This document shows, piece after piece, positions 3,471 to 62,440 of a stretch of 64,000 nucleotides of DNA. The position numbers were made by a program, and so were the translations under genes. The DNA lies in the NCBI RefSeq assembly GCF_900182615.1, contig NZ_FXTE01000001.1:62001-126000 (forward strand), written 5' to 3'. The first letter of the stretch is position 1. Each line of letters starts with the position of its first letter. This stretch comes from Ruegeria faecimaris (GTDB lineage Bacteria; Pseudomonadota; Alphaproteobacteria; Rhodobacterales; Rhodobacteraceae). The notes under the pieces are model-generated. The model was not told the origin of the DNA and ran no database searches. It saw only the letters and a list, made by a program, of their open reading frames with translations.

Positions 3471-6400
3471 CCCAACCCCTCCAGATCGGCTCGGATCGAG
3501 TTTCGGCGCGTGTTCCACAGGCCAGCCTCGAGCAGAGCACGGAACCGGTCCTGCATGGCCTGATGCGCCTGTGGGTTCTTCTCTTGCAGAAAGGCATCAA
3601 CCTCGGCGTTACCCAGTGTGGCATCGTGGTAGATGTCAAACAGATGCGGTGCAACGGTTCCCGACAGATGGGCAAAGCTTGCCATATGATCCAGCGTTGC
3701 CGCGATCTCGGCGGCGCCGCGAAATCCGTGCCGTTGCATTCCTGCGATCCAGTCAGGATTAGCCGCGCGCGCGTGGACAACGCGGCTGATTTCCTCAGAG
3801 AGGGTTCGGGCGCGGGGGGTGTCTGGGTTGGTATTGTCCAGATGGTACAGCTGCGCAGTACCGCCAGTGACTTTCTTGGCGGCGGCAAAACCGGCCTCAT
3901 GCGTGGCATAGTCATTGGCCAACAGCAGATCGGTTTCGGTCAGGTCCTGAAGGTGAACAAAGCTATCGGCGTGGGCAACGCGTTGGGTAATACCATCGAC
4001 ATCCCGTGCAATTTGCTCGCCCTCAAGCGCAAAGGAACTGGCATCCAGCCAAGCCTGACCGGCCTGTGCGCGCGCTTCGTCCGTATAGATTTCGGATAGC
4101 TGCGTCATGTTCAGGCCATAGCTGCCGGGGGCGGGGCCATAGACACGGGCGGCCGGTGCCTGCCCGGCATATGGGTTCCAGTCTGCTGCCTCGTCCCGTT
4201 CACACAATGCTCGCACTGCCTGGCCATACAGCGCAGAAAGCGTCGGGAATACATCGCGGAACAGGCCCGAGACACGCAAGGTCACGTCTAGCCGTGGACG
4301 GCTGAGATCAGTGATTGGCAGCACCTCGATACCGGAAACCCGCTCCGACCCCTTGTCCCAAACCGGTTTCACACCCAGTAGGTGAAGCGCCATGGCGAAT
4401 TCTTCACCCGCAGTGCGCATCGTGGCCGAGCCCCAGAGGTCGACAATCAGCCCCTTGGGGTAATCGCCTTCTTCCTGCAGATGCCGTCGCACTAGTTCCT
4501 CGGCCAGTTTGACACCTTGGGTATAGGCCGCGCGTGTTGGAACCGAACGCGGATCGGTGGTGTAAAGATTTCGCCCTGTCGGCAGCACGTCCGAGCGCCC
4601 GCGATAGGGTGAGCCAGACGGGCCAGCCTCGATCCGTTTCCCGGCCAGTGCGTCCAAAAGTGATTGACGTTCCGCATGCGCTGAAGGCGTGGCATCAAAA
4701 TTGCCGGTCACTTCGGGGACGCGGCCAAAGACGTGCAAGCCGTCGCCGAACTGGCTTTCTTTGATGTCGCAGACAAATCGGTCGATACGGGTGATCGCTT
4801 CGGCGGTACAGGTTGCCTGATCCAGACCCAGATCGCTTTCCAGACCAATGGCCTGCGCCTCATCCCGTATGTCTTCTTGTAGTCGGTCGCGGCGTTTGGG
4901 GTCCAGCCCGTCGGCGTTCGAGAATTCGTCAAGCAGGGATTCCAGCCGCACCATACGGTCCGGCGTGTCACTTGTTCGCATCGGGGGCGGGATATGGCCC
5001 AGTGTAACCGCCCCGATCCGGCGCTTGGCCTGTGCGGCCTCGCCGGGGTCATTCACGATAAAGGGGTAGATCACCGGCAGATCTCGGACCAACGCCTCAG
5101 GCCAGCAGTTTTGGGACAGGGCGACCGATTTGCCTGGCAGCCATTCCAACGTGCCATGCGCGCCGATATGGATCAGCGCGTCCGCGCCATGCCCCTTACG
5201 CAGCCAGAGATAGAAGGCAACATAGCTGTGGCGCGGGGTGCGCGAAAGATCGTGATAGTCGTCATCGCGCAGCTCGGGCGTGCCGCGTTCCGGTTGCAGC
5301 GCGATCAGTGTCTTGCCCCGGTTCAAGGCGGTAAAGTGGAACGCACCATCGGCAAAAACCGGGTCGTCCTCAGGCTTGCCCCAAATGGATTGCAGATCCG
5401 TTTGCAATTGTTCCGGCAAGTCTGCCAGCGCGGTCTTATAGGCCGCGAGCGGCCAAGCAAGTCGCGCATCCAAAAGCGTCTCGGCTATCGGTTCGCCGGG
5501 TGCTGTGTCATAGCCTTCAGCCTGCAGATCGGACAGCATCGCCTCGGCCGAGGCCAATGCATCCAGGCCAACCGCATGGGCCATCTGCCAGTCCTTGCCG
5601 GGATAAGTCGACAGCACCAACGCTGGGACCTGATCTGGCTTGGGTTTGTCGCTTAGGCGCAGCCAGCCGTCCACCCGATCAATGATCGCCTCAACCCGTT
5701 CCGGCTCGGGGCGGTGGGCAAAACGGGAATATTCCAGATACGGGTCGCGCTTGCCCGGTTCCTTGAACGAAGCGATGCCCGCCGAAATGCGGCCATCCAC
5801 CTCGGGCAGGACCACATGCATTGCGAGGTCGGCGGGGGACAGCCCGCGTTCCGCATCGACCCAAGCCTTGCGGCGTGCGGTGGACAAGGCGACCTGAAAT
5901 ACCGGCACATTGGCGGCGTCCAGCGGGGACGTTCCCGAGGCGCCTTTGCCCGAAAAGGAGGTGGCGTTGATGATTGCCGAGGGGGCCAGCGCTACGACCT
6001 GTTCGCGCAGCCAGTCAGCGGCGGTAGGGGCTTTGAGCGACGGCGCAAATAGGCCAACAGCCTGAAACCCACGCGCACGCAGACGGTGGATCAGGGCCGC
6101 GACCGGGGCAGTGTCTGCCGAGGTCAGATAGGCGCGATAGAAGGTCACGAGGATGCGCTTGGCATCACCGGCGAATGCGGTATCCGCCGGGATCACACCG
6201 CGATCCGGGCACCATACGCCACATTCCGGGATCGTCTTGGCCCCCATCACCGGGCCAGAATAAAGCCCCGCGGCCAGTGCCATTTGCGCCAGCGCAGCCT
6301 GCGCTGCGACCTCACCGCCTGTGTCGCAAAGATGCGCCAGCCGCCGCAGGGTTGAAACGGGCAGGGTAGAATAGTCATCCAGTCGCGTATCTTCACGTCC

Positions 6401-6760
6401 ATCCGCAGGCAGCACAGCAACGGCCATGCCCTTGGCGTGGGCCAGTGCCAGAACCTGCTGCAACCCGTAGGACCAGTAGGGCACGCCACCGATCAGGCGG
6501 ATCAGAATGCCTTTGGCGCCCTCCAGCGTCTGCTCGACATAGGTGTCGACAGAAAGCGGGTGCTTCAGCGCCGTCAGATTGGCCAGCCGCATGGTCGGCA
6601 TCCGACCTTCGGGTCCACCACCACGATGCCAGCCTGCCGCGAAAGCGCCAAGGTCACTGTCGGAAAAGGACAGCACCACCAGATCCGCCGGGCTCTGGCC
6701 CAGATCGGTTGGGGTCTCCGTTTCCTCTAACCCGTGGCTTTCGCGGAAGACGACGTGCAT
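3467..6760 (-). CDS. cobN: Aerobic cobaltochelatase large subunit CobN
   Basis: A 1097-aa protein, normal for CobN, the porphyrin-binding subunit of the ATP-dependent cobaltochelatase that inserts cobalt into hydrogenobyrinate a,c-diamide. Family landmarks include PVFQVALST in the first third, the HIGAHGTLEWLPGK segment with conserved histidines near the middle, GLIVDLWGSATMRTAGEEFA after it, and a conserved C-terminal end. CobN works with CobS and CobT, neither of which is in this window. The gene starts 3 bases after the cobW stop and overlaps cobG. Confidence 0.96.
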   Translation of the reverse strand: MHVVFRESHGLEETETPTDLGQSPADLVVLSFSDSDLGAFAAGWHRGGGPEGRMPTMRLANLTALKHPLSVDTYVEQTLEGAKGILIRLIGGVPYWSYGLQQVLALAHAKGMAVAVLPADGREDTRLDDYSTLPVSTLRRLAHLCDTGGEVAAQAALAQMALAAGLYSGPVMGAKTIPECGVWCPDRGVIPADTAFAGDAKRILVTFYRAYLTSADTAPVAALIHRLRARGFQAVGLFAPSLKAPTAADWLREQVVALAPSAIINATSFSGKGASGTSPLDAANVPVFQVALSTARRKAWVDAERGLSPADLAMHVVLPEVDGRISAGIASFKEPGKRDPYLEYSRFAHRPEPERVEAIIDRVDGWLRLSDKPKPDQVPALVLSTYPGKDWQMAHAVGLDALASAEAMLSDLQAEGYDTAPGEPIAETLLDARLAWPLAAYKTALADLPEQLQTDLQSIWGKPEDDPVFADGAFHFTALNRGKTLIALQPERGTPELRDDDYHDLSRTPRHSYVAFYLWLRKGHGADALIHIGAHGTLEWLPGKSVALSQNCWPEALVRDLPVIYPFIVNDPGEAAQAKRRIGAVTLGHIPPPMRTSDTPDRMVRLESLLDEFSNADGLDPKRRDRLQEDIRDEAQAIGLESDLGLDQATCTAEAITRIDRFVCDIKESQFGDGLHVFGRVPEVTGNFDATPSAHAERQSLLDALAGKRIEAGPSGSPYRGRSDVLPTGRNLYTTDPRSVPTRAAYTQGVKLAEELVRRHLQEEGDYPKGLIVDLWGSATMRTAGEEFAMALHLLGVKPVWDKGSERVSGIEVLPITDLSRPRLDVTLRVSGLFRDVFPTLSALYGQAVRALCERDEAADWNPYAGQAPAARVYGPAPGSYGLNMTQLSEIYTDEARAQAGQAWLDASSFALEGEQIARDVDGITQRVAHADSFVHLQDLTETDLLLANDYATHEAGFAAAKKVTGGTAQLYHLDNTNPDTPRARTLSEEISRVVHARAANPDWIAGMQRHGFRGAAEIAATLDHMASFAHLSGTVAPHLFDIYHDATLGNAEVDAFLQEKNPQAHQAMQDRFRALLEAGLWNTRRNSIRADLEGLG

Positions 6761-6763
6761 GGC

Positions 6764-7819
6764 TTACTCGGCGGCCTCGGTTACACCCACGAGGATTTCG
6801 CGGATTTCAGCCTCTTTGATGTCGTCATGCTCGGCGATGACCACCAGACGCGAGCGACGCTCTTCACCTGGCTCCCACGGGCGGTCGTACTGATGACGCA
6901 CACGGGCCCCGACGGCCTGCACCAAAAGGCGCATGGGTTTGCCGGTAACAGCGGCATAGCCTTTGACCCGCAGGATGTTCAGTTCATTCGCCAGACGTTC
7001 GATATTGGCGACCAGCTGGGCCGGATCGGTCTGTTCCGGCAGCTCGACAATGATGCTTTCGAAATCATCATGCTCGTGATCGTGGTGGCCATCGTGATGG
7101 CTGGGACGTGCCTCCATGTCATCTTCGGCAGCGGCCTCAAGCCCCAGCACAACACGTACATCCACAGCGCCTTCGGCCACTTCGACCACGGGCAGCGGGC
7201 GCGGAGCCTCTGCCGCGATGATTTCCTTGGCCTTGGCGACCCCCTCGGGGCCAGCAAGATCAGGCTTGGTCAGCAGAATGATGTCGGCGCAGGAGATCTG
7301 GTCCTCGAACACCTCGGATAGCGGCGTTTCGTGATCAATCGAGTCATCGGCCAGGCGCTGGGCATCCACCGCAGCGACATTCGGGGCAAAGCGACCGGCG
7401 GCCACAGCTTCGGCATCGGCCAGAGCAATTACGCCATCCACGGTGATTTTCGAGCGGATATCCGGCCAGTCGAACGCTTTCAGCAGCGGCTTGGGCAGGG
7501 CCAAGCCAGAGGTTTCGATCAGAATGTGATCGGGGCGCGGCTCTAGCGCCATCAGCGCCTCGATGGTCGGGATGAAATCATCTGCCACGGTGCAGCAGAT
7601 GCATCCATTGGCCAATTCCATGATGTTTTCCGCCGGGCAATCGGGGATCGCGCAGGATTTGAGGATATCGCCATCGACGCCAACATCTCCAAACTCGTTG
7701 ACCACAATGGCCAGGCGCTTGCCCTGCGGGTTCTGCATCAGATGACGCACCAGCGTGGTCTTTCCCGAGCCCAGAAAGCCGGTGATCACAGTGACGGGCA
7801 GTTTTTCGAGATTGCTCAT
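6764..7819 (-). CDS. cobW: CobW-family G3E GTPase, cobalt delivery
   Basis: A 351-aa G3E GTPase. Walker A is GFLGSGKT (residues 14-21), followed by the metal-binding GCICC motif (Cys73, Cys75, Cys76) and a TKPD nucleotide-specificity motif near residue 168. A His/Asp-rich stretch (HHDGHHDHEHDD, about residue 240) separates the GTPase domain from the CobW C-terminal domain, as is common in metal-handling members. CobW proteins are thought to hand cobalt to the chelatase; position directly before cobN fits that role. It follows the DUF1636 gene by two bases. Confidence 0.94.
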   Translation of the reverse strand: MSNLEKLPVTVITGFLGSGKTTLVRHLMQNPQGKRLAIVVNEFGDVGVDGDILKSCAIPDCPAENIMELANGCICCTVADDFIPTIEALMALEPRPDHILIETSGLALPKPLLKAFDWPDIRSKITVDGVIALADAEAVAAGRFAPNVAAVDAQRLADDSIDHETPLSEVFEDQISCADIILLTKPDLAGPEGVAKAKEIIAAEAPRPLPVVEVAEGAVDVRVVLGLEAAAEDDMEARPSHHDGHHDHEHDDFESIIVELPEQTDPAQLVANIERLANELNILRVKGYAAVTGKPMRLLVQAVGARVRHQYDRPWEPGEERRSRLVVIAEHDDIKEAEIREILVGVTEAAE

Positions 7820-8849: not shown

Positions 8850-8866
8850 TGGAGGCGAGTACCGGA
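8850..8866 (+). repeat. attL of the tRNA-Cys island
   Basis: An exact 17-bp copy of the tRNA-Cys 3' terminus including the encoded CCA (read TCCGGTACTCGCCTCCA on the minus strand). No tRNA body is attached: the sequence diverges straight after the repeat. This is the expected tRNA-distal attachment site. Confidence 0.92.
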
Positions 8867-8927
8867 CCCGCTACCAGTTTTCTAAGCCATTGATTTGCCA
8901 GGGGTTATCGGGGTGAGGGTTGGCTTG

Positions 8928-8949
8928 TGTGTCTCACTTTGTGTCACAC
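8928..8949 (+). repeat. Subterminal repeat, left copy
   Basis: A 22-bp element, TGTGTCTCACTTTGTGTCAC plus AC, that recurs at 15986-16007 with one mismatch and in the same orientation. On the minus strand its core TTGTGTGACACAA is a perfect 6+1+6 palindrome. It lies 62 bp inside attL. It is a likely binding site for the integrase arm domain or an excision factor (inference). Confidence 0.7.
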
Positions 8950-9012
8950 AAGGTGCAAGTCGGTCTGATTGTTGTCAATGGCCGACCCTAACTCCCGGCA
9001 ATCCGGTAAACC

Positions 9013-9420
9013 TCACCACATAACGTCTATTACGCGGCCATCGCTGTGCTGACATACTCCCACGCCGCCCATAGACGTAAAGCCAGAACTGTCTGCGTAG
9101 TTCATGTCGCATCGCATAGTTGAGCCCTTGTCTCCAAACATCACTGCGACGAGGTTACCCGTGGTTGTTGACGTGAAGACGGGGACTGTTGTCCCATTGG
9201 CAAAGCCAACACCTGTACCGCTGCTTGCATTGGCGTAAACGGCCTGCCCTTTGAAGTGTTCACCATCAATGGTTGTTTCATAGTAGTCGCGATCCATGCC
9301 CTGCTCATATTGGAATTGAACACGGGTACCCTCGCCACGCACAACACCCTGCATCGTTCCCCCGCATGCTGCGAGCGTAGTGAGTGAGCAAATTCCTGCG
9401 ATCTTAGATAAGTACTTCAT
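9013..9420 (-). CDS. Small predicted lipoprotein (island cargo)
   Basis: A 135-aa protein with a short N-terminal signal and a lipobox (LTTLAACGG; Cys at about residue 19), so it should be lipidated in the cell envelope. The mature part is polar, rich in Gly, Thr and Ser, with two further cysteines (RCDMN and GVCQHSDG) near the C-terminus. I do not recognise the family. It is the leftmost gene of the island, alone on its strand. No functional link to the ABC operon can be seen. Confidence 0.72.
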   Translation of the reverse strand: MKYLSKIAGICSLTTLAACGGTMQGVVRGEGTRVQFQYEQGMDRDYYETTIDGEHFKGQAVYANASSGTGVGFANGTTVPVFTSTTTGNLVAVMFGDKGSTMRCDMNYADSSGFTSMGGVGVCQHSDGRVIDVMW

Positions 9421-9649
9421 AGTGCAGCCTGTTTTGATAGTTAATGCGTGTACTCTTACCCTTTAGGTCAAAGGTATCATAGTCGTACTTTGAATATTGC
9501 ATCAATGTGTTCAAAGCAGGGCTGGCTACTCGAAACTGGTAGGTCTAAGAAGACACAGAATACCCGCCTAAAGTGTGAAGGGGTACGGGGAAAGTGCATC
9601 CGAAAACGACAATAGATAGGCTTGCGCAAAAATTTATTGGAATTTTCTA

Positions 9650-10996
9650 ATGAACCAAAACCAACAGTTCTTAAAACACATACTGCAGGCAATTGAAGAG
9701 GCTGATATTCCCGACCAAGGCGCAGCACAGTCGTGGGCTTTCGAGCCGTATTTGAGACTTAACGATGAGCGGACACAGGTAAGGCTGGATGCCACGTTGC
9801 AGAGGCTTTGTTCCGAGTGGCAGTCCAGCTATGCGCGCAAACGCAATGCGCAAGAGCAACGCGAGTTCAGAGACTGCTCAGGCATAGTTCTCATCAATGT
9901 ACTGAGAGCGCATGTGAAGCGGCGTGGTATGTCCGTTGGCATAGGAAGACAGAAGCAACGCCTTGATCGTGAGAGCAGGTATAGACCTGCATTTATGACC
10001 ACTCATCGTTTCCGCATGGCACTTGATTGGTTGTTGAAGACAGACCTCATATGCATCACCGCTGGTGGGTACCAATACGGGGACAATGCGCAGCACACCC
10101 GCTTTGCAATGACACCAAAGGCGATAGCGGCACTGTACACCGAACAGTTGACCATGAAGGCCTTCGAGATAGTGGAACCAGATGAAGTGCTGATACTAAG
10201 AGATAGTGAAAAGCAGCCCATCAGATATCACGACACCGAACAGACCATCGCTATGAGAAATGCGTTGGTCTTGATTAATAATGTGAATGCGAACGCCGAT
10301 GTCACCTTATCACGGCCATTGAGGTACGAAGACCTAGGCGAAGAGTATGTAGACACTGCGATTTCAGTAACTGCAAAACACCTACGTCGCATCTTTAACA
10401 ACGGCACATTTGACCAAGGTGGTAGGTTCTATGGAGCATGGTGGCAGTGCGTGCGTAAGCACGTTAGGCGCATAATCAATATCAACGGCGAAGCAACAAT
10501 AGAGGCCGACTACAGAGGTTTTAATCCTGCCGTATTGTTAGCAAAGGCAAAGTTCACGATACCTGCCGACCCTTATTCAGTGATCAAAGGTGTTGCCGCC
10601 AGTAGCGAACTTCGGGATCACGCCAAATCCACACTCGCTGCGTTTCTCAATGCGCAAACCAGATACATCGCAGAGCCCAGAGGGTTCGATGCAAGTAAGC
10701 ACTGCATGACAGCAGCCGAATTTCGTCAAACCGTTCTTGATGCCTACCCAATGATTAACCAGATGATTGGGCAAGATGCAGGTCTTAAGCTGCAGCGAGA
10801 GGAGAGTAATTTGGCAGAGAAGATAATGCTGCACTTTGTCAGGCAAGGACACCCGATTTTGCCTGTTCATGATGCCTTTATTGTACAGGCACATCTTCGA
10901 GACGAACTGGTTTCAGTTATGAAAGATCAATTCAACGCCAAGTATGGTCAGGTTCCCGAAGTGGAAGTGAAGGATTCCTTGCCAACAACAGAATGA
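9650..10996 (+). CDS. Island protein resembling the T7/family-A polymerase palm
   Basis: A 448-aa protein. The C-terminal third has, in order: INGEATIEADYRGFNP (Asp287), like motif A of family-A polymerases and T7-type RNA polymerases; ELRDHAK (Arg322, Lys326), an R-x3-K spacing as in motif B; and PILPVHDAFIV (His407-Asp408), like motif C. GRFYGAWWQ precedes motif A. The N-terminal 200 residues are helical and charged; residues 110-160 could be a winged-helix DNA-binding part. Similar uncharacterised proteins occur in other integrative elements as far as I recall. Polymerase activity is unproven: it lacks most of a normal polymerase's length. It could serve element replication or be a degenerate domain. 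Confidence 0.7.
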   Translation: MNQNQQFLKHILQAIEEADIPDQGAAQSWAFEPYLRLNDERTQVRLDATLQRLCSEWQSSYARKRNAQEQREFRDCSGIVLINVLRAHVKRRGMSVGIGRQKQRLDRESRYRPAFMTTHRFRMALDWLLKTDLICITAGGYQYGDNAQHTRFAMTPKAIAALYTEQLTMKAFEIVEPDEVLILRDSEKQPIRYHDTEQTIAMRNALVLINNVNANADVTLSRPLRYEDLGEEYVDTAISVTAKHLRRIFNNGTFDQGGRFYGAWWQCVRKHVRRIININGEATIEADYRGFNPAVLLAKAKFTIPADPYSVIKGVAASSELRDHAKSTLAAFLNAQTRYIAEPRGFDASKHCMTAAEFRQTVLDAYPMINQMIGQDAGLKLQREESNLAEKIMLHFVRQGHPILPVHDAFIVQAHLRDELVSVMKDQFNAKYGQVPEVEVKDSLPTTE

Positions 10997-11058
10997 GTGC
11001 AGACTTCCCTTTCCATTGGTATCTCCCCATTACCGGGGCGAATAAGATGGATGAACTC

Positions 11059-12762
11059 CTACCTAGCATCCCCTATTTGGATACCCAGCAGTTTGTGCTC
11101 TGGCGCGTCGCCAAATAGTCTAACAATTACTGATTGTTCTGCCGTTTCTTTTTCGCTGTCGCCAAGCAATTTCAATGTCGAAGTGTAGTTTTCGGTATTG
11201 AGTGAGACAATGTACTGCTTTCCCGTACCTAGGAGAGCGTCCATAGTGAGGCTGAGCCACTTAGCTCGCTGCCTCGGGTCAATATGGTCAAAAAGACCGT
11301 TGTCATGCCACACGTGGCCCATTGTATGGTGTGACCCGTACATAAAGACTAACCAATCAAAACACATAATCCGAGCGGCATTGATGCCGTCGGAATCCTT
11401 GCCTTGCACATCTACCGAAAGGTCGTAACGGAGCTTATTTTCCTTTGTGTTGTTAAGCAAAACTATTCCAGCCGCTTCTTGTGGGTAAAGCTCCCCCACC
11501 AATGAGCGAAACTCTTCATCTGCCCACTCGATCGGGCGGGTTTTTAGATATTCTTCGGCTCTAGCGTCTTGCTCGGCCATCTCCTTGCGAACTTCGATCG
11601 TTTCATGTTGCAGTTCACTTTCACCTTGAATGAACGCTGAAAGCCGCTTCGAGTCCTGTTCCTTCGATGCCAGCTGGCGCACTACCACCTCGTAGTCTCC
11701 CAGAGCTTTCTTGCCTGAAAGATATCGCAGATTCTCATCCCTTTGGCTGGCAAGCTTTGAACGCTGAATGTCTGATACATTTTTCTTTGAAACGAGTGCT
11801 TCTCGATCACGGGTTAGGCGCTCCTGCCTTTTTTTCGCAAGCGAGTGATGGAAGGCCTCGACATCTTCAAAATGTTTCAAGGCTTCAGGTTTGAATACGT
11901 CGCTCATCCCTTCATAAAATGAAGATAACGCTGCACTGCTAATGTCGGGGCGTTGCTGTAGAGAAGCTTCGATTCCTCTAATTTGGTATTCTAGTACCGC
12001 TATTTCTGACTCTTTTTGGCGTAGTTCCAAAGTCAGGCGGTCTGCTTCTTCTTTTATTTTCTCATAATCGTCCGCAAGGTTCATTGTTTCAACGCTCGTG
12101 CGGAGACCATTTATCTCATTTTCAAGTCTCTTGAGGTGAGTCTCAGGTCGTACACCTCCCAAAAGAAGTTGCTGAAGCCTTTCGTCCCGTGACTTCAGTA
12201 GCTTTTTGACTTCCTGAATCTCGAGTTGCCGTGAACGCAATTCAACTTTTTTAGCTGACAAGCTGACATCGGTTCCGAGAAGATAGAGAGTGCGAGTTAG
12301 CGCTTGGTAGTCCTGTTCGCGAGCAAGCACGACAGGGTCGACACGATCTGCCCGATTGAGCCGCGCAAACCGTCCATACAACGATCGGAAGGATATCCCA
12401 TCCGATCCATCTTCTACATCAAATGGTCCAATTTCATTAAGCCATCTGCGGACTTTCGCCAGAGAAGTTTTACTACCATTTAGTTTGATTTCACTGCCAT
12501 CTCCTTGACGAGAAATAGTGTGTACTTTTCCATGCAACTCGAACTCCAAAGAGAAGACCCAGTCAGGTACACTTTTTTCTAAAACCCTATCTTTGTTAGC
12601 ACCTAGGCAATGGTGCACGAGTTTCAGAGTTAGTGTTTTTCCTACACCATTGGAGCTCGCATCATCTTTTGACGCATCTCCCACGATCAGAGAAATTCCT
12701 TCTCTGTTGAAGTATAGCGGTTTGAAAGATGACCTGTCGCATGTGAGGGAAACAAGAATCAT
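11059..12762 (-). CDS. SMC-like ABC ATPase, DUF2326 type (ABC three-component system)
   Basis: A 567-aa ABC ATPase of the SMC/RecN class. Walker A is SSNGVGKT (residues 36-43), in the long-loop form seen in DUF2326 proteins. Residues about 170-410 are a heptad-rich coiled coil. The C-terminal part has the IMCFDWLVF segment and HDNGLFDHIDPRQ, a hallmark of the DUF2326 ATPase end. Such ATPases are paired with a small middle component and a variable effector in predicted conflict systems. The gene overlaps the middle component as ATGA and ends 62 bp from the convergent polymerase-like gene. The antiviral role is from family knowledge, not from the sequence. Confidence 0.88.
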   Translation of the reverse strand: MILVSLTCDRSSFKPLYFNREGISLIVGDASKDDASSNGVGKTLTLKLVHHCLGANKDRVLEKSVPDWVFSLEFELHGKVHTISRQGDGSEIKLNGSKTSLAKVRRWLNEIGPFDVEDGSDGISFRSLYGRFARLNRADRVDPVVLAREQDYQALTRTLYLLGTDVSLSAKKVELRSRQLEIQEVKKLLKSRDERLQQLLLGGVRPETHLKRLENEINGLRTSVETMNLADDYEKIKEEADRLTLELRQKESEIAVLEYQIRGIEASLQQRPDISSAALSSFYEGMSDVFKPEALKHFEDVEAFHHSLAKKRQERLTRDREALVSKKNVSDIQRSKLASQRDENLRYLSGKKALGDYEVVVRQLASKEQDSKRLSAFIQGESELQHETIEVRKEMAEQDARAEEYLKTRPIEWADEEFRSLVGELYPQEAAGIVLLNNTKENKLRYDLSVDVQGKDSDGINAARIMCFDWLVFMYGSHHTMGHVWHDNGLFDHIDPRQRAKWLSLTMDALLGTGKQYIVSLNTENYTSTLKLLGDSEKETAEQSVIVRLFGDAPEHKLLGIQIGDAR

Positions 12763-13016
12763 TGAGAAGCTACAATACGGTCATTTTCTGCAGGAACAGC
12801 AGCGCCGATGGCGTACAAAAGTGTGACGGCGAGAGTGATTTTCTCAAAATCCACCTGCCCGGGCCAGCCACTGTCACTACGATTCAAGAAGCTCTGCAAC
12901 TCATCAATGGTTTTGGGTACTGTGATTAAGTCGCGAATTTTCCCAGCGAGTCCTACGACACTGTCGCAAAACCTCACATGATCATGCGGTGCGACTGCTA
13001 GTCTCAGGTTTGTCAT
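12759..13016 (-). CDS. Small middle component of the ABC three-component operon
   Basis: An 85-aa protein beginning MTNLRLAVAPHDHVRFCDS, with a following helical segment and a moderately hydrophobic C-terminal helix (ITLAVTLLYAIGAAV). Its position between effector and ATPase, with a 35-base overlap with the effector gene and an ATGA overlap with the ATPase gene, matches the middle component (MC) of ABC-3C systems. These are thought to couple ATPase state to effector. An in-frame ATG at 13034 would lengthen it by six residues. Family assignment relies mostly on context. Confidence 0.75.
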   Translation of the reverse strand: MTNLRLAVAPHDHVRFCDSVVGLAGKIRDLITVPKTIDELQSFLNRSDSGWPGQVDFEKITLAVTLLYAIGAAVPAENDRIVASQ

Positions 13017-13923
13017 AGACGTCACAAGCCTCAAAAAAGTGTGCTAGAATCACCTCTGCTGCGCCATGGAAAGCCTTAAACGAGTGCGGGTGTGCGTGAG
13101 CAGATTCGGGTATTACCTTTCCTACCATCCAGACATAGCGAAGGTCAGCAGCATCTTCTAGATCGATTATAGTGGATTTGCTTTCAGCATACAGATCGCG
13201 CAGTTCCTGAGCTATGCCTTCCGCTAACCATTGACCGCGGACGTTCAAGAAACCAGTAACATCAGCATCTTGGTAGCTGTTAGCTCGCAATCGGGCACCA
13301 ACTGCATCAGACAGGCCATTGAATTCAATCTTTTCGTCGAAGTCCGGAGCCAACCCCTTGGAACTCAACCCATTCGGCGACACCTTGTTTGCCAAGTGTT
13401 CTAGGAGTTCACCGATTTTCCGCTTGTCAATGAAAGTAGGCTGATGGCCCGGTACTCCACCGACAATCTCCATCATCTCAAACTCTTTCAAATCGGTAAA
13501 TCGGTCCGTTAACTGAGCGCAGGCAATCGAGTCCGCATCAACACCATACAATTTTTGAATATTCTGAAGCGATATTTCTACTGGACCGGGAACACCTTGG
13601 AAACGATCATTTAGAACAAAACTGTATCGATTCAGACCATTCCATTTATTCAATAGCTTTTGGAAGTCATCTTCCGATTTCTTCGCTGCTACGGCTGGCG
13701 ACCAATTGGAACCAGCTTTTGGTCCATAAACTTGAAGATAATGCCCGGATGACCGTACGTACCCGTCATTTCCTCCATCGCCTGCACTACCCCAAGGAGC
13801 AATTGACTGAAAATCATCAGCTCCACCTTGAAACACTGCATTGACCAAGTTTTGGAAGGCCATGCTGTCTGCCTCATGAAGGCGCAGGCGAAAAAGAAGC
13901 CTGTACCAAAATAAACTGCTCAT
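12982..13923 (-). CDS. Effector with nuclease-like N-terminus of the ABC three-component operon
   Basis: A 313-aa protein. The first 70 residues look like a PD-(D/E)xK restriction-endonuclease fold: a helix with FQNLVNAVF, then GDGGNDGY (Asp53) and YLQVYGPK (Gln64, Lys69), close to the Mrr-type D..(E/Q)xK arrangement, though with a variant third position. Residues about 150-313 form a second domain of mixed helices, as expected for the C-terminal domain shared by ABC-3C effectors. It is the first gene of the operon. Nuclease activity and target are inferred; a binding-only role is possible given the variant motif. Confidence 0.8.
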   Translation of the reverse strand: MSSLFWYRLLFRLRLHEADSMAFQNLVNAVFQGGADDFQSIAPWGSAGDGGNDGYVRSSGHYLQVYGPKAGSNWSPAVAAKKSEDDFQKLLNKWNGLNRYSFVLNDRFQGVPGPVEISLQNIQKLYGVDADSIACAQLTDRFTDLKEFEMMEIVGGVPGHQPTFIDKRKIGELLEHLANKVSPNGLSSKGLAPDFDEKIEFNGLSDAVGARLRANSYQDADVTGFLNVRGQWLAEGIAQELRDLYAESKSTIIDLEDAADLRYVWMVGKVIPESAHAHPHSFKAFHGAAEVILAHFFEACDVYDKPETSSRTA

Positions 13924-14383
13924 GATCTAGACGACTCCACAAAAAGAATATGGCAGCGGTAGGCGAGGCTAGGTATCACCAGAGCTGTTCTAATTTCATT
14001 GTTCACAACTTCTTAGGGTGAAGAGCCCTCGTCAAGAGGCTCTGTCGATTTGTCAGTGAATTTTCGGCCTCAAGTCCATCAGACAAGTAATATCAAACTT
14101 AAACAGATTGCGCCGTTAAATGTTAGACACGACTAAAGAGCCCTACGTTCTAAAACTCGTGAATTATGATCGAGAAAACGAGATCATTCGATTTTATGGT
14201 ACACCCCATGCTTGCGGTTCTGTTGATGCTAAGTGTGAGTAGTATCACTTAAGGAATTTCAAAGAAGATAGATGTGGGAACTCCGATTGAATATCTCATA
14301 GGTCCGCACTGTGGGAAAAGGTACGTCAATGCGCTGCCACGCTGTGGCGGTCGTACACGCGGCACTTAAGGTGTTGGACATCT
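13924..14383. other. A+T-rich intergenic stretch in the island
   Basis: 460 bases between the integrase stop and the effector start. It should hold the promoter of the ABC operon on its left side. A hairpin is visible (AGAGCC..GGCTCT, about 14023-14044). A 40-codon plus-strand frame at 14120-14242 (starting MLDTTKEPYVLKLVNYD) has protein-like composition but no clear ribosome binding site, so I do not call it as a gene. No direct repeats or tRNA-like sequence were noticed. Confidence 0.45.
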
Positions 14384-15979
14384 TCACTGTACGGAGAAGC
14401 TGTTTGTTCCAAATTTGTCTATTGCCTCTTTGAGTTGAGGTAGCGTGTAACCTTCTCTTAAATAGACTTCTTGAGTTACACCAGATCGAGCGTGACCGAC
14501 AATACACTGGACAATGGGCTCAGCTACTCCGGCTTGGCTCAGTCGTGTCACGACTGTGTGCCGGAAGCTGTGGAAAACCAAGCCCGGCTCTTTAATGCGC
14601 AGCTTTTTTAAGAAACTCTCGTTGCACCAGCGTCCTAGGTTGCGGCCATAACCCCCGTTTGCGTTGTAGCTGTATTCAGGGAATAGGCGTGTCCCTGACC
14701 GTCTGCTCTCTACAAAGCTCAAGAAACCTAAGCGTATCAATTCGGCATGTACGGGTACTTTGCGTCTTCCGGCATCAGATTTAATCCGCTGGTCCTCGCC
14801 CTCATCTGTAATGTTTAGATACCATACGCCACCTTCTTGTTGAACGTCATCGACCTCCAGTTGGCATATCTCGTTCAGGCGCGCACCTGTGAACATTCCT
14901 AGTAGCATACCCCACTTGTGGCATTCCTTGCGCACCAGCTCAGACGGGTTTTCTGTTAGTTCTTTGTAAATCAAGCGGGCGTGGTCGGGCTTGAAGGGCT
15001 TGCGTTCGGTGACGCTGTTTTTGGCCTTTGCCACTTTCATGCCGTCGAAGAGGCTATGTGGTGAGTATCCGTGTCGTTCAGCCCAATCAAAAAAACCTTT
15101 GAACATTTGTATGTGGCTATTGATCGTTTTGGGGGCGATCTTCTTCTGACCCGGCAGCTTGATGACTTCCATCAAAGGCATGTTTTTTAGTGCGGGCTTG
15201 GTGTTCCGACTAGATGGTAGGGCTTGAAGAACCTTTTTGACTTCGTTGGCATCCTGCTTCGTAATCGTGCTCAGTAACCGGTCTGGCCCGAAGTATTCGA
15301 TAAGTATGTTCAGGTACGCACGGTTCTGGCCGATTGTTTTTTCAGCCCACTGTCGCGAGTGTTCAGCGATGAAGTCATCAACCGCAGCTCCCAAAGCAGC
15401 GGACGTAGGCAGCGTCGGAGTTGGAGTAGTGCCAACGATGGCATGTGCGTCGTCGAAGGAATAGCGCTCAAGGCGCTCTGCGGCTTCTAAGACGCGCTGT
15501 AGTAGGTCCCTGCGGCCTTTCCTCAACTCAGTTGCGATCCTAGGCATACTGGCATCCCAGTCCGCGTCTGACACGCTCATCTTGCTCTTGAAGCGATCAA
15601 TTGGAAGCCACAAAGGGAAGGCACTATTGATTTCCATGAAACTTTCATGGTCTGCCAGTTCTTCCCGGGCGTGTAGTAGAGCGTTCTGAGATAGTCCACG
15701 GCGATCCAGCCATGCAAGGTACTGATCCAGTTGTGCTTTGAAGAAAGATTGGACCTTCGTCCTTATTTCATCCTGCCTAAGTCCGGCCAATGTCCCGCTG
15801 TCCCTTATTAGCTGCCCATAAGACGCGAGATAGCGAGCCAGTGTGCCTGCTCGATCTGGGCAGCGTGTTTTGAGTGAAATCCGAATTGTTCGCCGCTTTC
15901 CCTTTGTAGAGGGAGGGATAGGCCAGCGGAAGTAATAAACGCCATGTCTTGAGAGGGTTAGATAGGATGACAATTTCAT
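14384..15979 (-). CDS. int: Tyrosine site-specific recombinase (island integrase)
   Basis: A 531-aa phage-type integrase. The N-terminal part (KLSSYLTLSRHGVYYFRWPIP) is the short beta domain common in proteobacterial island integrases. A SAM-like core-binding domain lies around residues 190-330. The catalytic domain shows TGARLNEICQL (Arg), a Lys-bearing IKSDAGRRKVPV segment, HSFRHT (His-x-x-Arg), VGHARSG (His) and the nucleophile Tyr in EVYLREGY. The ATG at 15979 is chosen because the upstream 13 codons run into the subterminal repeat. It lies 67 bp from the tRNA-Cys att site, so it integrates into that gene. Confidence 0.95.
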   Translation of the reverse strand: MKLSSYLTLSRHGVYYFRWPIPPSTKGKRRTIRISLKTRCPDRAGTLARYLASYGQLIRDSGTLAGLRQDEIRTKVQSFFKAQLDQYLAWLDRRGLSQNALLHAREELADHESFMEINSAFPLWLPIDRFKSKMSVSDADWDASMPRIATELRKGRRDLLQRVLEAAERLERYSFDDAHAIVGTTPTPTLPTSAALGAAVDDFIAEHSRQWAEKTIGQNRAYLNILIEYFGPDRLLSTITKQDANEVKKVLQALPSSRNTKPALKNMPLMEVIKLPGQKKIAPKTINSHIQMFKGFFDWAERHGYSPHSLFDGMKVAKAKNSVTERKPFKPDHARLIYKELTENPSELVRKECHKWGMLLGMFTGARLNEICQLEVDDVQQEGGVWYLNITDEGEDQRIKSDAGRRKVPVHAELIRLGFLSFVESRRSGTRLFPEYSYNANGGYGRNLGRWCNESFLKKLRIKEPGLVFHSFRHTVVTRLSQAGVAEPIVQCIVGHARSGVTQEVYLREGYTLPQLKEAIDKFGTNSFSVQ

Positions 15980-15985
15980 TGTAGG

Positions 15986-16007
15986 TGTGTCCCACTTTGT
16001 GTCACAC
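15986..16007 (+). repeat. Subterminal repeat, right copy
   Basis: TGTGTCCCACTTTGTGTCAC plus AC, one mismatch from the left copy at 8928-8949. It sits seven bases upstream of the integrase ATG, where it would overlap the integrase promoter or ribosome binding region. It may therefore serve both recombination and autoregulation (inference). Confidence 0.7.
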
Positions 16008-16046
16008 CCGAGCACCACAGGGCTAAGTCAATGATTTAGAATAAAA

Positions 16047-16063
16047 TGGAGGCGAGTACCGGA
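16047..16063 (+). repeat. attR of the island, within tRNA-Cys 3' end
   Basis: The last 17 bases of tRNA-Cys including CCA, identical to attL at 8850-8866. Integration keeps the tRNA intact. Confidence 0.92.
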
Positions 16064-16120
16064 ATCGAACCGGTGTACACGGATTTGCAATCCGCTGCGT
16101 CACCACTCCGCCAACTCGCC
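16047..16120 (-). tRNA. tRNA-Cys (GCA), CCA encoded
   Basis: A 74-base tRNA on the minus strand. The acceptor stem GGCGAGT pairs with ACTCGCC, followed by discriminator T and an encoded CCA. The anticodon stem GCGGA/TCCGT encloses loop TTGCAAA with anticodon GCA. The T arm CCGGTTCGATTCCGG is complete. It is the integration target of the adjoining island and appears functional. Confidence 0.97.
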
Positions 16121-61168: not shown

Positions 61169-62440
61169 TTAGGCCACTTTGTTGCGGTTGGCCGCTTTGC
61201 GCGAGGGTTTGCGGGCGTTGGCGTTCATAAATTCGATCACCAATGGGCGGATATTGTCGCGCCAGCTGCGGCCGGCGAAGATGCCATAATGACCTGCGCC
61301 AGGTTCGACATGGCTGGCTTTTTTCGAATCCGGCAGCCCTGTACACAGCTCGAGCGCAGCAATGCACTGGCCAGGGGCCGAGATGTCGTCATTCGCACCT
61401 TCGACTGTTTTGACAGCAACGTTTGTAATTTTGCCGATATCCACCTTGTGCCCTGCAACAACGAACTCGTTGCGCGCGATTTCGCGGTTTTTGAAGACGC
61501 GTTCGACGGTCGAAAGGTAGAACTCGGCGGTCATGTCCATGACGGCGAGGTATTCATCGTAGAATCTGTTATGGGCATCGTGATCCGAAGCCTCGTCCCG
61601 CATAACCCTCTGGATCTGCTCGGAAAACGCCTGAGAATGCCGGTCCGAATTCATCGACATGAACGAGGCCAACTGCAGCAGGCCGGGATACACCATGCGC
61701 CCGACGCCCTTATACTTGAAGCCGACGCGCTGAATCATGGTTTCTTCCAGCTGCCCCATTGTCACGCGGCGGCCAAAATCAGTCACGTCGGTAGGTGTGG
61801 CATCCGGGTCAACAGGTCCGCCGATCAATGTCAGCGTGCTGGGTTGGGCTTTGGGTTCGACCTCGGCCAGATAGGCTGTGGCGGCCAGAGTCAGCGGCGC
61901 CGGTTGGCAGACGGCTACAACGTGGGTGTCCGGTCCCAATTCTTTCATGAAATCGACAAGGTAAAGTGTATAATCCTCTACATCAAACTTACCTTCGGAC
62001 ACGGGGATATCGCGCGCATTATGCCAGTCTGTGATATAAACTTCGCAATTCACCAAGAGGCTTTTTACGGTGGACCGAAGCAAAGTGGCGTAATGTCCAG
62101 ACATCGGGGCGACCAACAGCACCTTGCGGGGCTGTTCGGCGCGGCCATTGACACGTATATGTATCAAATCACCAAAAGGGCGTTCGATCACCGGGACAAT
62201 ATCGACCAGATGATCCTTGCCGTCTGCGCAAGTGAATGTACGGATTCCCCAGTCGGGTTTTACAACCATGCGCTGGAACGTCCGCTCAGTCACCTCGCCC
62301 CAGGCGGCCATCATGCTGAACGCAGGGTTGGGCACCATCGAAAACAGCGGATAAGAAGCCATGGCACTTGCCGTAGCACCCATCCACTGATTGGTGTTGC
62401 GCAGCGTTTCCATAAGATCGTAGGTCATCATGTAGCGCAT
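61169..62440 (-). CDS. phaZ: Intracellular polyhydroxyalkanoate depolymerase
   Basis: A 423-aa enzyme that breaks down stored PHB. HVVAVCQPAPLTLA holds the Cys nucleophile used by intracellular depolymerases in place of Ser. Other landmarks are VLLVAPMSGHYATLLR, YITDWHNARD, GGPVDPDATPT and VEPGAGHYGIFAGRSWR. The ATG at 62440 (MRYMMTYDL) is the usual start. The gene is divergent from phaC, across 111 bp. Confidence 0.94.
   Translation of the reverse strand: MRYMMTYDLMETLRNTNQWMGATASAMASYPLFSMVPNPAFSMMAAWGEVTERTFQRMVVKPDWGIRTFTCADGKDHLVDIVPVIERPFGDLIHIRVNGRAEQPRKVLLVAPMSGHYATLLRSTVKSLLVNCEVYITDWHNARDIPVSEGKFDVEDYTLYLVDFMKELGPDTHVVAVCQPAPLTLAATAYLAEVEPKAQPSTLTLIGGPVDPDATPTDVTDFGRRVTMGQLEETMIQRVGFKYKGVGRMVYPGLLQLASFMSMNSDRHSQAFSEQIQRVMRDEASDHDAHNRFYDEYLAVMDMTAEFYLSTVERVFKNREIARNEFVVAGHKVDIGKITNVAVKTVEGANDDISAPGQCIAALELCTGLPDSKKASHVEPGAGHYGIFAGRSWRDNIRPLVIEFMNANARKPSRKAANRNKVA

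Follow-up and report, generated by a model that had tools for sequence, protein, structure and literature searches.

P0001, a 448-amino-acid protein from Ruegeria faecimaris, fits into the TV-Pol family by its features, and we consider it probable that this compact family-A-type polymerase core, joined to a winged-helix-like N-terminus, replicates the small integrative element that carries it. The family is already known: TV-Pols were defined in 2008 by Iyer, Abhiman and Aravind, who proposed that they have primase-polymerase activity (PMC2579912), and the phage branch divPolA2 followed in 2024. P0001 adds one more member. The new details are the winged-helix-like N-terminus (weak matches), an element with defined ends at a tRNA-Cys gene, and ten sister elements that share its ends, polymerase family, and integrase but carry other cargo.

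We analyzed a window of 64,000 nucleotides (forward-strand positions 62,001 to 126,000 of contig NZ_FXTE01000001.1), and the coordinates of its features are positions within that stretch. Conservation is given for A3, an alignment of P0001 with 81 relatives from genome and viral-contig loci (397–582 amino acids). Relatives were included in A3 if they had at least 395 amino acids and were not identical after residue 50, and they are 19–45% identical to P0001. The features of the element are:

8850..16063, no strand: integrated element with 17-bp exact direct repeats (7,197 bp, measured between the starts of attL and attR)
8850..8866, + strand: attL, 17 bp identical to the tRNA-Cys 3' end
8927..8949, + strand: left 23-bp subterminal repeat, 77 bp after the start of attL
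9013..9420, - strand: small ORF with a lipoprotein-like signal, no Pfam match
9650..10996, + strand: TV-Pol-type polymerase P0001, 448 amino acids
9650..10234, + strand: N-terminal region of P0001, residues 1–195, with winged-helix-like topology at residues 67–154 (weak matches)
10418..10447, + strand: GGRFYGAWWQ hairpin segment, residues 257–266, with invariant Arg259
10508..10510, + strand: motif A, Asp287 (82/82 in A3)
10613..10627, + strand: motif B, Arg322-x3-Lys326 (82/82 in A3)
10868..10873, + strand: motif C, His407-Asp408 (82/82 in A3)
11059..12762, - strand: ABC-3C ATPase (DUF2326; PADLOC PDC-M68B), cargo
12759..13034, - strand: ABC-3C middle component MC6, cargo
12982..13923, - strand: ABC-3C CTD10 protein (PADLOC PDC-M68A), cargo
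14384..16018, - strand: tyrosine integrase, adjoining the tRNA gene
15985..16007, + strand: right 23-bp subterminal repeat, 62 bp before the start of attR
16047..16120, - strand: tRNA-Cys(gca), the target gene; attR is 16047–16063

An earlier note on this DNA had described the 448-residue reading frame at 9650–10996 as encoding an island protein. Both the reading frame and the island are borne out: the element has exact 17-bp tRNA-Cys repeats at its ends, a tyrosine integrase beside the tRNA gene, and a shifted G+C content (0.485 inside, versus 0.617 over 8.8 kb of left flank and 0.562 over 8 kb of right flank). The 17-mer occurs just twice in the window, counting both strands. The true start of the integrase may be an internal ATG near 15979. 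The ABC-3C genes at 11059–13923 (PADLOC PDC-M68) form a candidate anti-phage cluster, and the signal in the small ORF at 9013–9420 is presumably a lipobox. On the strand of the polymerase gene and 3' of it, there is a 63-amino-acid ORF at 10997–11188 and others of at most 102 amino acids, most of them antisense to the cargo or integrase genes; an SSB-like partner was not evident near the polymerase.

When we compared P0001 to PHROGs, there was a single strong match, to phrog_4756 (E = 1e-39), whose function is unknown. All 82 members of A3 match this family as well. Pfam, NCBIfam, PADLOC, and PDB-sequence searches with P0001 gave nothing useful, and a profile search of PDB sequences with the P0001 family found nothing. 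No nuclease domain was found in P0001 with Pfam, NCBIfam, or PHROGs (E ≤ 1). Among the 13 Pfam families that are matched by any member of A3 (E ≤ 0.1), DNA polymerase I (PF00476) does not appear.

Using tblastn, we found relatives of P0001 in 178 of 50,697 phage records, every one at below 60% identity and mainly in phages of Rheinheimera (114), Vibrio (45), and Aeromonas (14). Of 72,556 plasmid records, 4 contained a relative. A match was also present in 9 of 61 genomes close to the host, a set that includes the host's own genome. With an alignment-based scan of a collection of species genomes, 245 of 287 candidate stretches were confirmed, and we kept the best 80 of these. A single-sequence search with P0001 found no relative in the viral contigs (viral_contigs); an alignment-based search found 5 among 135 candidates. 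Within the host's family, the TV-Pol profile matched 43 of the 295 sampled genomes (43 of 294 genera). At a few loci, the TV-Pol gene is doubled or accompanied by a shorter copy (L081, 9395–11071 and 15191–16936; L026, 3089–4396 and 7818–8834; L013, 7401–9257 and 2824–3423), and several phage records likewise have two TV-Pol places.

The family is highly conserved at the putative catalytic residues. Asn210, Gly258, Arg259, Gly262, Arg273, Asp287, Tyr309, Arg322, Lys326, His407, and Asp408 are present in 82 of the 82 sequences, and Asp307 of the fingers is kept in 80. In a separate alignment of 13 sequences that includes phage and plasmid homologs, the residues that are invariant in A3 are again fixed, except for Gly262. 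We considered a chance motif match for P0001, and the 82/82 conservation rules it out. The divPolA2 representative AUR84708 (L174, 25469–26761, - strand) belongs to the same family (PHROG 4756, E = 1.8e-91; A3 profile, E = 1.3e-34), and four other phage proteins also match PHROG 4756. By automatic alignment, AUR84708 keeps Gly258, Arg259, Asp287, Asp307, Tyr309, Arg322, Lys326, and Asp408 and has phenylalanine at the position of His407, which is thus not fully invariant.

Other active-site positions are more variable. In Pol I, a glutamate acts as a steric gate. By profile alignment, this glutamate corresponds to residue 292, which is histidine in 67 of the 82 sequences, asparagine in 10 (P0001 included), and glutamine in 5. 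The tyrosine of Pol I's motif B corresponds, by the same alignment, to residue 334, which is asparagine in 78 sequences, glutamine in 2, phenylalanine in 1, and threonine in 1. AUR84708 has glutamate at 292 and glutamine at 334 (automatic alignment). Because residues 292, 334, and 407 differ between A3 and AUR84708, the choice of substrate cannot be read from the sequence, and the glutamate and phenylalanine of AUR84708 imply more variation in the phage branch than one would expect from A3. The spacing between the aspartates of motifs A and C is also short, with a median of 122 in A3 (range 113–150) versus 174 in this genome's own Pol I.

An AlphaFold model of P0001, built with A3, has a mean pLDDT of 93.5 and a pTM of 0.88. 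In the model, the hairpin strands are at 246–249 and 257–261, with Arg259 in the second, and they are followed by a strand (281–288), helices at 319–334 and 377–397, two strands that flank Asp408 (404–406 and 409–413), a helix at 414–432, and a strand at 438–442. The predicted order of strand, fingers, helix, hairpin, helix, and strand is the topology of a family-A palm. Ahead of the hairpin, the model has one long helix (197–215), with further helices closer to the N-terminus. We used Foldseek to compare the model to the PDB and obtained 56 matches with E ≤ 0.001. All of the best 50 of these 56 are family-A DNA polymerases, and the matches listed include Taq, Bst, apicoplast, mycobacterial Pol1, theta, and nu polymerases. 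Whole-chain TM-scores are low (0.23–0.34 by query length), as would be expected for a correspondence limited to the palm and fingers; the fold match is therefore based on the probability given by Foldseek and on the agreement among all listed matches. The fold of P0001 also matched a replication protein of the virophage Zamilon (E = 5.2e-4), which we take to be a TV-Pol.

We also used hhalign to compare the family with 12 Pol I sequences from the host's class. The matches are weak in absolute terms, with a probability of 1.9% and E = 0.026 for the whole protein and 2.6% and E = 0.018 for the core (E values for a single comparison). In the core alignment, the GR hairpin, a QNIP-like segment, and motifs A, B, and C are in register, and its score of 25.6 exceeds those of 100 column shuffles (mean 15.6, standard deviation 2.2, maximum 21.9) and of a reversed control (14.8). 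When the family profile was set against a single T7-type RNA polymerase from a phage, which we confirmed with PF00940, only the region of motif C aligned (P = 0.071). The earlier note had picked out Asp287, Arg322-x3-Lys326, and His407-Asp408 as motifs of the T7/family-A superfamily, and these lie at just those positions. It had named structure prediction and profile comparisons as checks of this reading and a fold without a palm as one way to refute it: the palm appears in the model and the motifs line up with those of PolA, while for RNA polymerase, as represented by one phage enzyme, the alignment is confined to motif C. The fold, the profile alignment, and the conserved motifs support the assignment to the superfamily. 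The suggestion of a new polymerase is not supported, given TV-Pol in 2008 and divPolA2 in 2024.

When residues 1–195 were folded alone, the model had a pLDDT of 91.5, and residues 67–154 showed the order helix-strand-helix-helix-strand-strand. The fold matches listed in the PDB are mostly winged-helix regulators (including MarR, PadR, Fur, GntR, and SSV1 F-93), each of them weak (best E = 0.057, none at 0.001). The N-terminal domain is likely a winged helix, judging from this predicted structure.

We examined the genes around 91 loci after dropping two duplicates; 80 of these loci come from genomes, 8 from phages or plasmids, and 3 are viral. Genes were clustered by blastp linkage, and one member of each cluster was named with Pfam. 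Within 8 kb of the polymerase, 63 of the 91 loci have a gene from an integrase cluster, 27 have one from a resolvase cluster, and 65 have either, with many of the loci cut by contig ends. If only the 48 loci that extend 6 kb or more in each direction are counted, the corresponding numbers are 42, 20, and 43. The integrase count omits a Thioclava plasmid (L012) whose annotated integrase is at the edge of the fetched stretch.

We also searched for replication partners. PF08706 places in 11 of 45 genomes gave 12 seed proteins for D5-type helicases, and with an HMM and blastp from these seeds, no ORF matched in 103 loci; leave-one-out runs recovered 12/12 seeds. Repeated 9-mers are more frequent upstream of the polymerase gene (mean of 0.94, versus 0.42 after block shuffling; 86 loci) and downstream of it (1.03 versus 0.38; 91 loci), with 2 upstream and 0 downstream in the window. 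This crude test of repeats beside the polymerase gene gave no clear origin. With no D5 helicase and no evident SSB-like partner, the remaining replication machinery would have to be the host's.

The ends of the element recur elsewhere. We scanned the 91 context loci and 15 stretches from relatives' genomes for the 23-bp repeat, allowing up to 4 mismatches. A tRNA-Cys gene is present in 22 of the scanned loci, of which 11 have two copies of the repeat, 2 have one, and 9 have none. All of the two-repeat loci (L019, L027, L028, L031, L039, L043, L044, L045, L047, L049, and L117) also have two att copies. Ten of these eleven sister elements contain a full-length TV-Pol and an integrase and are 6,147–12,827 bp long; the other, L117, has decayed to 2,660 bp and retains fragments of both genes. 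In the eleven, the left repeat is 76 bp after the start of attL (77 bp in the window) and the right repeat is 62 bp before attR, as in the window. The two one-copy loci, L036 and L121, may be cut off by the ends of contigs or fetched stretches.

In the ten sisters with intact genes and L036, the integrases are 67–78% identical to the window's, and the polymerases are 30–46% identical and form two groups (30–33% and 42–46%). The cargo of nine of the ten sisters is of the restriction-modification type (type III, type I, or ISP), and that of L047 is unnamed; the name of each cargo cluster comes from one example tested against Pfam and PADLOC. At L121 (G063; 4317–5417 and 5747–7363), where a relative has an element at the same tRNA-Cys, the integrase is 72% identical but the TV-Pol is 31% identical, a difference suggesting that the polymerase module has been exchanged or changes fast.

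Nine tRNA-Cys loci lack the repeat, and eight of them come from further genomes in the host's genus. Two of these eight contain another stretch between exact att copies (L127, 2680 and 15608; L128, 1010 and 18579) and have neither the 23-bp repeat nor a TV-Pol match, so this tRNA-Cys site looks like an integration hot spot. In L123, the second att copy has one mismatch and there is no 23-bp repeat.

More broadly, 20 of 295 genomes contain the 23-bp pattern with at most 2 mismatches, and the reversed control had no match in the rows listed. TV-Pol is present in 9 of these 20 genomes versus 34 of the 275 others (P = 0.0007, Fisher's exact test), and in all nine it shares a contig with a repeat that lies no more than about 9 kb away. 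TV-Pol was not detected in the other 11, some of which have the pattern near contig ends or with two mismatches. Because of these 11 genomes, the repeat is no proof of a target for the polymerase. It is probably an arm-type or end site of the integrase, and the ends of the element may serve the integrase alone.

TV-Pols have been proposed to be the minimal form, and perhaps the ancestral one, of the superfamily that comprises Pol I and T7 RNA polymerase, and a subset with an extra N-terminal domain adjoins genes for lambda-type integrases, gamma-delta resolvases, or transposases (PMC2579912). Their neighborhoods are rich in restriction-modification operons, and the published alignment includes Rhodobacterales (PMC2579912). 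P0001 resembles these proteins in having a minimal family-A core with the hairpin arginine, the aspartate pair of the palm, and the aspartate and RxxxK of the fingers, with no nuclease, and its family is likewise carried by mobile elements and viruses. The TV-Pol thumb consists of two antiparallel helices (PMC2579912); in our model, the long helix before the hairpin and the helices N-terminal to it lie in this part of the chain. There are also differences. The extra N-terminal domain was predicted to be all-helical (PMC2579912), while that of P0001 is modeled as winged-helix-like with strands; and the family was found via the neighborhoods of D5 helicases (PMC2579912), which we did not find beside the gene in the loci here. 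An A3 profile search of Microcystis phage Ma-LMM01, used as a reference for the family of 2008 (one record, E up to 10), gave no match, an empty answer that is uninformative.

The divPolA2 proteins of Caudoviricetes belong to the same PHROG family as P0001, but they are encoded by phages that also have a regular DNA polymerase, whereas P0001 is on a chromosomal element that carries an integrase. In the sections of the divPolA2 paper that we draw on, these proteins are described as coexisting with a regular PolB in variable neighborhoods, as lacking a thumb that is homologous to others, and as having an N-terminal domain with no known similarity (PMC11348598). The main text of that paper names TV-Pol once, in the background (PMC11348598). 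In the literature on TV-Pol, divPolA2, and Roseobacter islands, we found no paper that joins divPolA2 with integrase-borne islands, and among the matches listed for Roseobacter islands, no title names these elements.

Family-A polymerases of other mobile elements have been proposed to prime and copy those elements, according to the parts of the sources used here (PMC7581432, PMC10061031), which is a likeness to P0001. CCPol of SCCmec, which Iyer and colleagues placed in TV-Pol, extends primers and can prime when joined by MP, and it was, to the knowledge of Bebel et al. in 2020, the sole TV-Pol to have been characterized biochemically (PMC7581432, in the portion cited). CCPol is regarded by its authors as derived from Pol I and may be only a distant relative. 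The PolA-SSB pairs of Bacillota are treated by Rice (2023) as derived from Pol I; as far as the cited portion goes, nearly all have an OB-fold partner, a nearby helicase, and mostly large serine recombinases, and their core is close to Pol I (PMC10061031). Beside P0001, in contrast, there is no such helicase hit and no evident partner. Pol I itself shares motifs A, B, and C and a QNIP-like segment with the P0001 family, but P0001 lacks exonuclease domains, its spacing between motifs A and C is shorter, and the steric-gate glutamate and the motif B tyrosine are not kept in A3.

The earlier note had offered a replication factor of the element as one option, and we infer that this is the most likely role. 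The tyrosine integrase would excise the island at the 17-bp att repeats of tRNA-Cys; the putative winged helix would bind the element's DNA; the polymerase core would copy the circle, possibly making its own primer; and a copy would then re-integrate. For this to work, the enzyme would be active, its product would be DNA, and the N-terminal domain would recognize an origin. In favor are the homology and predicted palm, the conserved motifs, the linkage to an integrase and to fixed element ends, and the varied defense-type cargo of the sisters. Against it weigh the differences from Pol I at the sugar-recognition positions 292 and 334, the weak absolute profile scores and low TM-scores, the absence of D5-type helicase hits in 103 loci and of a clear origin, the phage relatives that coexist with PolB, and the 11 of 20 genomes with the 23-bp pattern in which no TV-Pol was detected.

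T7-type RNA polymerases have a GRxY hairpin and an HDSF-type motif C. P0001 shares both, so it could instead be a small single-subunit RNA polymerase that transcribes the element's genes or lays RNA primers. Weak matches to T7-type RNA polymerase (PF00940) in 5 of the 82 A3 members (best E = 0.0061; none for P0001) and matches to PHROG 414, "RNA polymerase," in 2 of the 82 also fit this idea, as does residue 292 being histidine, asparagine, or glutamine instead of glutamate and residue 334 being asparagine in 78 sequences. The divPolA2 authors considered an RNA polymerase possible, in the sections drawn on here (PMC11348598). Yet the best 50 fold matches are all to DNA polymerases, P0001 is about half the size of a T7-type enzyme and aligned with the one phage representative only around motif C, AUR84708 has the steric-gate glutamate, and divPolA2 is reported to have an N-terminal domain with no relationship to its counterparts in RNA polymerases (PMC11348598). 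We think an RNA polymerase is unlikely. An accessory DNA polymerase for repair or gap filling, which might finish integration instead of replicating the element, also seems rather improbable to us. Phage relatives coexist with PolB and lie in variable neighborhoods; the divPolA2 authors suggested repair and did not think it the replicase there (PMC11348598, the sections cited); the lack of a D5 helicase in 103 loci and of a clear origin nearby is compatible with that role. In bacteria, however, the polymerase travels with an integrase in small elements, and its winged-helix-like N-terminus (weak matches) would suit sequence-specific binding.

The company that P0001 keeps might suggest a polymerase-type effector that acts with its neighbors in defense, since ABC-3C or restriction-modification-type genes are found in the window's element and in nine of the ten bounded sisters. 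But the type of cargo changes while the polymerase stays, P0001 has no PADLOC match, and phages carry TV-Pol relatives too, so defense cargo is a very improbable explanation. Finally, the earlier note had allowed for a co-opted inactive domain. A palm that has become a DNA-binding regulator would make sense of the winged-helix-like N-terminus (weak matches), but the metal-binding pair Asp287 and Asp408, Arg322 and Lys326 of motif B, and Arg259 of the hairpin are kept in all 82 sequences, which argues against an inactive relic, as do the predicted fold and the profile alignment. We find it hard to believe that P0001 is inactive.

Returning to P0001 as a replication protein, a bolder version is that one chain of 448 amino acids, a winged helix joined to a minimal family-A core whose sugar pocket is non-standard, is origin binder, primase, and polymerase together; that an integrative defense element of 6–13 kb replicates without a helicase, primase, or SSB of its own; and that divPolA2 and the TV-Pols of bacterial elements are one family that serves as a portable replication module for small defense islands. 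We view this as doubtful but conceivable. The branch of P0001 is common in the host's family and compact, and the elements that carry it have precise ends. Its ability to prime and the nature of its product, DNA or RNA, are therefore open to testing on a small, well-bounded element. Also, an unexplained family of phage proteins (PHROG 4756, divPolA2) is now connected with integrase-borne islands that carry defense-type genes.
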